NCBI GenBank assembly: GCA_001302985.1
Contig: LJNG01000002.1
Coordinates: forward strand, 71,164 to 114,447
Reading direction: 5' to 3'
DNA: 43,284 bases
Source of the DNA: Parcubacteria bacterium DG_74_3
GTDB lineage: Bacteria; Patescibacteriota; Minisyncoccia; Minisyncoccales; DG-74-3
The notes under the pieces are model-generated. The model did not search any database. It was given only the letters and a program-made list of their open reading frames with translations, and was not told where the DNA came from. Each line of letters opens with the position of its first letter. The first letter of the stretch is position 1. Of the stretch, positions 155 to 37,147 are shown in pieces. The translations under genes and the position numbers were made by a program.

Positions 155-218
155 AAGATGCGGTGGGAGAAGAATTCGAACCTTCGGTACCCTCATCGGA
201 TACACCTGTTTTTCTCGA

Positions 219-332
219 CCCCGTAAGAAAGCGGAGGGTGGAGGATTTGAACCTCCGAGGGGATTGCTCCCCAACTGGTTTTCAAGACCAGCGCTTTAAA
301 CCACTCAGCCAACCCTCCGCCTTTCTACGGGG
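219..332 (-). repeat. Clamp-bounded insert in the outer tRNA-Ser: CCCCGTAGAAAG-[tRNA]-CTTTCTTACGGGG
   Basis: Terminal inverted repeats at 219-231 and 321-332; same CCCCGTA/TACGGGG ends as the insert at 36961-37066. Confidence 0.75.
232..318 (-). tRNA. tRNA-Ser(TGA), nested
   Basis: GGAGGGT/ACCCTCC acceptor, anticodon arm TGGTCTTGAAAACCA (TGA), long variable arm, T-arm GGAGG-TTCAAAT-CCTCC. Confidence 0.9.
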
Positions 333-379
333 CAAGCAGGCCCGTTCGTCCACTCCGGCATCCCACCTTTTTAACTTTT

Positions 380-22654: not shown

Positions 22655-22664
22655 GACAAGAAGG

Positions 22665-22752
22665 CGGTGGGGGTGAGACTCGAACTCACATGAGTATTGC
22701 TACCCTCCGCTTTTCGAGAGCGGCACCTTAACCAAATTCGGTACACCCCACC
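22665..22752 (-). tRNA. tRNA-Ser(CGA)
   Basis: GGTGGGG/CCCCACC acceptor; CCGCT-CTCGAAA-AGCGG; long variable arm. Confidence 0.9.
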
Positions 22753-24463: not shown

Positions 24464-24492
24464 TCAATTTTATGCCCCTGACAGGAATTTCA

Positions 24493-24594
24493 CCCCGCAC
24501 TATTTAATGCCCCCACCAGGACTCGAACCCAGATCAATGGCTTAGGACGCCACTGCTCTATCCATTGAGCTATGGGGGCCACAAGGGTGCGGGG
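24493..24594 (-). repeat. Clamp-bounded insert in outer tRNA-Arg: CCCCGCAC-[tRNA]-GTGCGGGG
   Basis: Perfect 8-bp terminal inverted repeat at 24493-24500 and 24587-24594. Confidence 0.7.
24508..24579 (-). tRNA. tRNA-Arg(CCT), nested
   Basis: GCCCCCA/TGGGGGC acceptor; GTGGC-GTCCTAA-GCCAT; CTGGG-TTCGAGT-CCTGG. Confidence 0.9.
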
Positions 24595-24711
24595 CGGGCC
24601 TGTATCAGAACCTTAGGAGGATTCTGTTCTATCCGTTGAACTACAGGGGCAGGTTTCGTTTTCGATTTCCAATAATAGCATTTTTTCTTTTAGTTGACAA
24701 TAAATTTATGG

Positions 24712-26032: not shown

Positions 26033-26134
26033 AAGTAATCGTTATTTTAAAAGAAATTATTAATTCGGTCAACCCCGCGTAAAAGAATTTTAAATGGCCC
26101 TCGTTCAAATTCAATATTATTGTTCAAATTTTCA

Positions 26135-26704
26135 CTACGGGGTCAATTCTTTTTGTAATGCTTCCAATAATTTTAAGTTTTGATAGCGAGAACCAATATA
26201 TTCATAGGCCAAACCCAGTCCTTTTTCTTGCCAAAGCCCTGCTCTTACATATAAAGGAGGTAATTTCTCTCCTTTTATGCTGTAGAATTCTGTTAGATTA
26301 GTGGCTGCCAGAAGTCTGTCAATTTCTTGGGTTGGCGTCTCTGGCGGTTCTTCTTCTGGTATCTCAGGGGGAATTTCGGGGATTGGCTTTGGGACTTCTC
26401 CTTTTATGCCCCTAAAGGGGTCGGGGTATTTTTTCAAATCTATTTCTATAAGTTTTTGCTTTTTCTCTTGCCAGACCTCTAAAATATTTTGATATGTTTT
26501 TTCTTTAAATTGAAGTGGTTTTTCAGAAACCTCGGGCGCCTCTTTTTGGGCTAAGATACTATATCTCTCAAAAATAATACCTCCCAGGACAAGAGCAAAA
26601 ACGAAGAGGAATAGAAAAGTTAAGAGAGTATGACTACCTAAGGTTCTAGGTAGTTTTATTAAGAAGTTCTTGGTTTTTTGGAATTTTATTTTGGGAATTT
26701 TCAT
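26135..26704 (-). CDS. Membrane-anchored protein of unknown function at the end of the pilus operon
   Basis: N-terminal TM helix and a Pro/Glu-rich linker; downstream of pilO-like gene. Confidence 0.5.
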   Translation of the reverse strand: MKIPKIKFQKTKNFLIKLPRTLGSHTLLTFLFLFVFALVLGGIIFERYSILAQKEAPEVSEKPLQFKEKTYQNILEVWQEKKQKLIEIDLKKYPDPFRGIKGEVPKPIPEIPPEIPEEEPPETPTQEIDRLLAATNLTEFYSIKGEKLPPLYVRAGLWQEKGLGLAYEYIGSRYQNLKLLEALQKELTP

Positions 26705-36882: not shown

Positions 36883-36960
36883 CTTTATAAGCCAGATCGA
36901 CTCTGTAGAATGAGGTTACGGTGCGGGAGTAATTCAGCGGTAGAATTTCTCGCTTCCAAG

Positions 36961-37066
36961 CCCCGTATAAATCTTGCGGGATTAGTTGAGCGGCTCAACG
37001 TCACCCTTCCAAGGTGAAAAGGTGGGTTCAACTCCCATATCCCGCTTAATACAATTTTGTACGGGG
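36961..37066 (+). repeat. Clamp-bounded insert in outer tRNA-Gly: CCCCGTA-[tRNA]-TACGGGG
   Basis: Perfect 7-bp terminal inverted repeat at 36961-36967 and 37060-37066. Confidence 0.75.
36976..37046 (+). tRNA. tRNA-Gly(TCC), nested
   Basis: GCGGGAT/ATCCCGC acceptor; TCACC-CTTCCAA-GGTGA; T-arm GTGGG-TTCAACT-CCCAT. Confidence 0.88.
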
Positions 37067-37147
37067 GCAGAGAGAGGGTCGTGGGTTCAAATTCCGTCTC
37101 CCGCTCCCCGAAAAATTCGCTTCGCTCATCTCGGGATGAGCCAAAAT

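Follow-up and report, generated by a model that had tools for sequence, protein, structure and literature searches.

Integrative elements and prophages that occupy tRNA genes supply tRNA sequence and keep their host alive, restoring the end of the interrupted gene through att-site recombination. Rickettsia palindromic elements are described as carried within the gene product. The latter elements (named in PMC2635572), the intron-containing and split tRNAs of Archaea (reviewed in PMC4090602 and PMC4390854) and the synthetic home-and-rescue and cleave-and-rescue gene drives (PMC7968924; PMC7951863) are the systems with which we compare the locus presented here, a complete tRNA gene lodged within another one. 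In the open-licence literature, a coverage with subscription papers and preprints mostly outside it, we found no description of a tRNA nested in a tRNA.

The window, by which we mean the whole stretch of 43,284 nucleotides analysed, contains at positions 161-367 of the minus strand an intact tRNA-Ser(TGA) placed between the two halves of another tRNA-Ser, an arrangement that we call a nested locus (locus A; table 1). The inner gene is called by ARAGORN at 231-318 and reaches 63.7 bits with the Rfam tRNA model. The insert that holds it, of approximately 115 bp, is bounded by inverted repeats (CCCCG…CGGGG) and contains the tRNA and short repeats only, being too small for an integrase gene; no Rfam match to a group I or group II intron was obtained, and within the window only tRNA models reach threshold. 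As the earlier note had described, the outer tRNA retains every element of its pairing on the minus strand: the acceptor stem (GGTGGGA/TCCCACC), the D stem, the anticodon stem halves (CCTG/CAGG) and a 6-bp variable arm are all paired, and so are the five positions of the T stem (5/5, one pair being G·T). Folding agrees with the further proposal that the inner tRNA projects on one long helix from the outer anticodon stem, the inner cloverleaf being predicted atop a helix continuous with that stem (MFE -99.7 kcal/mol; z -5.6; equally good folds in 0 of 200 shuffles).

The same note had considered that the outer anticodon could not be assigned with certainty. Relatives of the same order now permit the assignment. 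Intact tRNA-Ser(TGA) genes orthologous to the outer one and of its sequence type are present in G004, G037, G109, G082 and G007. Relatives carry such a gene at the same place, and in G004 and G037 it adjoins tRNA-Ser(GCT) and tRNA-Arg(GCG), as it does at locus A. Thus, the outer sequence is the resident gene of this locus, and the claim of a complete tRNA-Ser(TGA) lodged in another tRNA-Ser, at its anticodon loop, is upheld, with this outer gene identified by orthology as a tRNA-Ser(TGA). The suggested option of a CTTG-AAA junction giving TGA was not borne out. The intact orthologues read GCTG-TCTTGAAAA-CAGC across the anticodon loop, versus CCTG-CTTG ... TCGAGAAAAA-CAGG in the flanks at locus A, and rejoining the latter produces neither TCTTGAAAA nor a clean TGA loop. 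ARAGORN scans of joined outer sequences discriminate little, since some anticodon arises at many junctions. In G007, the intact gene of the outer type itself sits inside the remnants of a still older tRNA-Ser.

Looking for the same locus in related genomes, which had also been suggested, yielded an orthologous nested locus in G027 besides these intact genes. Between the source genome (G000) and G027 the inner tRNAs are 66% identical and the outer ones 81%, while the repeats are nearly the same; within locus A, inner and outer share 67% identity. The lower similarity of the inner genes relative to the outer ones marks the inner tRNA as a newcomer and not a duplicate of the outer. The outer tRNA of G027 is also perfectly paired, with compensatory differences relative to that of G000. 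The pristine outer tRNA at locus A is best read as the mark of a recent insertion, although the well-paired outer of G027 casts some doubt on this reading. In the nested inner tRNA-Ser of G027 (L376), position 33 is occupied, unusually, by a C.

The source genome (544 kb in 21 contigs, 97% complete) groups with the Patescibacteria, to judge from the organism names attached to matching loci (Parcubacteria, Wolfebacteria and others). It contains four nested loci, three of them (A, B and C) in the window and the fourth (D, L035) on contig C2. At locus B (24473-24650, minus strand) both genes are tRNA-Arg(CCT), the inner one lying in the T loop of the outer; at locus C (36923-37105, plus strand) both are tRNA-Gly(TCC), the inner one lying in the anticodon loop of the outer; and locus D has a tRNA-Arg(CCG) within the T loop of a tRNA-Arg. 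There are 46 tRNA genes in the genome, tRNA-Ile(TAT) included, with one gene per anticodon except for CAT, which is found twice. Intact copies of Ser(TGA), Arg(CCT), Gly(TCC) and Arg(CCG) are present only as inner genes. Judging from this gene complement, the four inner copies would very likely be essential to the cell, as each of these isoacceptors is intact only in the inner position. With one gene per anticodon and the inner gene as the only intact copy, a working outer copy is thus not needed. A tRNA-Ser(CGA) elsewhere in the window (22663-22752, minus strand) scores 34.4 bits, which is weak next to the rest of the tRNA set.

Table 1. Positions in the window of the parts of nested loci A, B and C and of an empty copy of the element.
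Feature	Position	Strand	Basis
Locus A, resident (outer) tRNA-Ser(TGA), 5' half	337..367	-	Orthology to intact tRNA-Ser(TGA) in G004, G037, G109, G082, G007
Locus A, CTTG tetramer and left inverted repeat CCCCGTAGAAAG	321..336	-	Sequence; similar ends in G027, G011
Locus A, inner intact tRNA-Ser(TGA)	232..318	-	ARAGORN and Rfam; sole intact Ser(TGA) found in genome
Locus A, right inverted repeat CTTTCTTACGGGG	219..231	-	Sequence
Locus A, resident (outer) tRNA-Ser(TGA), 3' half	161..218	-	Orthology; acceptor 7/7, T stem 5/5 paired
Locus B, outer tRNA-Arg(CCT), 5' part up to T stem	24599..24650	-	Best match Arg(CCT) of another genome
Locus B, CCCG and left repeat CCCCGCAC	24587..24598	-	Sequence
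Locus B, inner tRNA-Arg(CCT)	24508..24579	-	ARAGORN and Rfam
Locus B, right repeat GTGCGGGG	24493..24500	-	Sequence
Locus B, outer tRNA-Arg 3' end (TGAA, T stem, acceptor, discriminator)	24473..24492	-	Sequence
Locus C, outer tRNA-Gly(TCC) 5' half	36923..36960	+	Sequence
Locus C, left inverted repeat CCCCGTATAAA	36961..36971	+	Sequence
Locus C, inner tRNA-Gly(TCC)	36976..37046	+	ARAGORN and Rfam
Locus C, right inverted repeat TTTTGTACGGGG	37055..37066	+	Sequence
Locus C, outer tRNA-Gly 3' half	37067..37105	+	L241; acceptor 7/7, T stem 5/5 paired
Empty copy of the element	26073..26142	-	TTGA direct duplication on both sides; next to end of an ORF

Nested loci are not confined to this genome. 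The search pattern consisted of repeat, T loop and repeat, and required CCCCGT, so that loci B and D would escape it and the counts are lower bounds. At least 120 stretches match the pattern in a one-genome-per-species collection. In a sample of 384 genomes from across the phylum, 16 contain it and 0 contain the reversed control pattern. Among the matches listed there are 73 loci of Patescibacteria type with a tRNA inside the repeats, after removal of two dubious entries; a few of them come from genomes titled only "bacterium," and the named ones include Parcubacteria and Wolfebacteria. When compared with a pool of intact tRNAs, the outer remnant has its best match in the amino acid of the inner tRNA at 59 of these 73 listed loci, versus a mean of 8.3 and a maximum of 21 in 20,000 shuffles. 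At several of the other 14 the best match is drawn off by an intact neighboring tRNA. Inner and outer genes lie on the same strand in 70 of the 73, with none clearly opposite. The insertions fall mostly in tRNA loops: an automatic rule applied to the 73 listed loci places 35 in the anticodon loop, about 12 in the T loop and about 8 in the D loop, leaving others unclassed. We rejected tandem neighboring tRNAs as an explanation, given that the insert lies between the two halves and these are of its own isotype. In viral contigs the same pattern returned only minimal repeats of 6-8 bp and nothing nested; these matches are at chance level and phage was rejected as a vector.

The condition of the outer tRNA differs among loci. 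It is canonical (acceptor 7/7, T stem 5/5, standard T loop) at 22 of the 73 listed loci, by a test that loci with a T-loop insertion are unable to pass. The kept pairing of locus A had been taken in the earlier note to speak against decay, a view that this count and the stepwise decay in one family (f99) do not sustain. The four loci of this family are syntenic; their inner tRNA(CAT) has the same 75 nt in G319, G333 and G288, and that of G389 differs by a single base. The outer tRNA is intact in G319 and has lost its T arm in G333; in G288 its 5' half is split and the 3' half is lost together with the right repeat, and in G389 no trace of it is left. We infer the direction of the last step, the vanishing of the outer in G389, and a lone gene of the inner type might also arise by another route. 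At tRNA-Ala(CGC) loci, at least five in number, the outer anticodon is gone, with ATTTTCA-C(G/A)AGTT in place of ATTCGCATT. Elsewhere the outer tRNA lies itself within an older element and outer half, in the manner of Russian dolls (L157, L224, L228 and L232), and the inner and outer roles of two tRNA-Ala(CGC) types are interchanged between L139 and L171. Overall, these comparative sequence data favor replacement over a retained function of the outer tRNA.

Some outer tRNAs show additional peculiarities. Those of L128, L172 and L238 have also been struck by extra empty hairpins, located in the D loop, the T loop or the acceptor/D junction. In two loci with a nested tRNA-Ser (L243 and L059) the outer is without the stretch from anticodon loop to T loop, as if fused at TTCGAA, and L243 presents a perfect CGAA duplication.

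The repeats that enclose the tRNAs also occur without them. Perfect terminal inverted repeats measure 6-21 bp (mode 13) in the 73 tRNA-hosted copies listed, and most empty copies, that is, elements with the same ends and no tRNA, have common ends of about 13-14 bp. Empty copies are dispersed in many of these genomes; within a genome they are 75-98% alike (G072, G082, G041 and G040), their flanks are mostly unrelated, and they are accompanied by 4-bp direct duplications (TGAA, TTCA, TAAA, TTGA and TGGA). Such dispersal is, at the sequence level, a signature of MITE-like transposition. The tRNA-hosted copies are flanked by identical tetramers at 1 of the 73 listed loci; their ends are commonly unlike, with CTTG or another YYYG on one side and TRAA on the other, or the reverse complement. 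Simple transposition thus fails to account for them. Moreover, tRNA-bearing copies that are not nested are practically absent from the sample, whereas neutral hopping would predict otherwise. A non-exhaustive search of long repeat pairs found no transposase or autonomous partner; the ORFs enclosed by the only such pairs that it yielded (L161 and L072) are host-like and were discarded as candidates.

Taken together, we consider that locus A is probably a tRNA gene midway through replacement, in which a cognate tRNA borne by a hairpin element takes over from a disrupted resident. An element of about 115 bp, with CCCCG...CGGGG ends and a complete tRNA-Ser(TGA), would have entered the anticodon loop of the single-copy resident tRNA-Ser(TGA), leaving it broken and probably non-functional. 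Sharing the orientation of the resident, the inner tRNA would probably be transcribed from the resident's promoter; the usual maturation of tRNA 5' and 3' ends would set it free, and it would now decode UCA codons. The repeat helix would lengthen its acceptor stem and may hold its folding apart from the homologous outer halves. Such an insertion would survive only when the cargo matches the gene that it breaks, with the element becoming essential as a consequence. The outer halves would subsequently decay and the repeats erode until a lone foreign tRNA remains, and the new gene would in turn be open to further insertion, yielding Russian dolls. Should the resident promoter be required, selection alone could impose both the cognate and the sense-strand rules.

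The main functional rival is that the insert is a tRNA-bearing intron, with the outer tRNA spliced and both tRNAs made: the repeat helix would align the exons, nucleases would cut out the inner gene product, and the halves would be sealed by RtcB or another ligase. Several observations are in line with this scenario, namely the perfectly paired outer stems of locus A and G027 with their compensatory differences, the preference for tRNA loops, the further hairpins in other loops of some outers (L128, L172 and L175), and a full-length RtcB gene in the genome (contig C2:25539-26834; L380). We nevertheless regard splicing as clearly unlikely. Outer anticodons are often destroyed, as at the Ala(CGC) loci, and the flanks of locus A give no TCTTGAAAA loop; 51 of the 73 outers listed are non-canonical, and in family f99 the outer decays as the inner stays constant. 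G027 holds a second intact Ser(TGA) elsewhere, so its outer would not be needed either. The archaeal-type splicing endonuclease (PF01974) is absent from the genome and was detected in archaeal controls. The products of RNase P and RNase Z carry 3'-OH and 5'-P ends and are not known to be substrates of RtcB, which also speaks against joining by this ligase. Finally, narrow patterns, restricted to the T loop, to a single orientation and to an exact TGAA flank, found no solitary empty T-loop insertion in 247 + 384 genomes, and the single empty T-loop insertion seen (L128) is in an outer that also bears a nested tRNA.

A different origin with the same outcome, replacement, is that the nesting arose through recombination instead of transposition of a tRNA-bearing unit, a foreign tRNA gene with repeat flanks being exchanged into a resident already hit by, or homologous to, such elements. 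The missing target duplications of tRNA-hosted copies would fit such an exchange, as would the strict co-orientation of inner and outer, the different inner tRNAs between repeat ends common to G000 and G027, the swapped Ala(CGC) types of L139 and L171, and the stretch lacking in L243 and L059, as if joined at TTCGAA. On the other hand, this requires an earlier viable interrupted tRNA or two precise crossovers, and the narrow T-loop patterns revealed no empty interrupted tRNA outside nested loci in the same 247 + 384 genomes; we view it as a credible but rather improbable route. An assembly artefact or a chance pairing of two tRNA genes is scarcely conceivable. Metagenome-assembled genomes are error-prone and tRNA genes do cluster, but the same arrangement recurs in dozens of independent assemblies and the reversed control is silent, which indicates that locus A is neither; the matches in viral contigs show just the minimal repeat, and one family includes four syntenic loci.

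Because tRNA-bearing copies are scarce outside nested loci and the tRNA-hosted ones lack target duplications, there is room for the recombination route or for dedicated homing. In this context, we put forward, as a tentative possibility, a home-and-rescue system of natural origin. In it, a selfish hairpin element would home specifically to the loops of tRNA genes cognate to its cargo, in sense orientation and without target duplication, possibly through RNA-guided or RNA-level insertion, and would drive essential tRNA genes across Patescibacteria through successive replacements. If replacement does take place, reduced genomes with one gene per anticodon could still exchange essential tRNA genes, the newcomer arriving inside the very gene that it disables. 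This would be a natural counterpart of engineered rescue drives, and would bring in foreign tRNAs, a complication for phylogenies based on tRNA. Nested loci are a class that tRNA finders report as ordinary inner tRNAs only, and the decay series makes the replacement process datable.

Each of the known systems shares some features with these loci. The synthetic rescue drives likewise break an essential gene while supplying a diverged rescue copy, which prevents loss of the element; they are engineered with Cas9, whereas the present case is natural, no nuclease was found, and any bias in inheritance is hypothetical. With MITEs the element has in common a short, non-coding constitution, terminal inverted repeats and dispersed copies, the empty ones having 4-bp direct target duplications. 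In contrast to MITEs, it holds a complete tRNA within a cognate tRNA gene, its tRNA-hosted copies are without target duplication and no autonomous partner was found. These last two points, target duplication being a defining feature of MITEs, are why we do not class it as one. The archaeal intron-containing and split tRNAs also have halves parted by an intervening sequence capable of forming a helix, with insertions in anticodon, D and T loops, but here no gene for a bulge-helix-bulge splicing endonuclease was found, the outers decay and the insert is a cognate tRNA. Similarly to integrative elements and prophages, tRNA genes are the target and the supplied tRNA sequence would keep the host alive; unlike them, a whole second tRNA lies inside the broken one, in about 115 bp and without an integrase, and the outer gene is not restored. 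Finally, Rickettsia palindromic elements are also small palindromic mobile elements inside the genes of reduced genomes, whereas those described here break an RNA gene and appear to take over its function.
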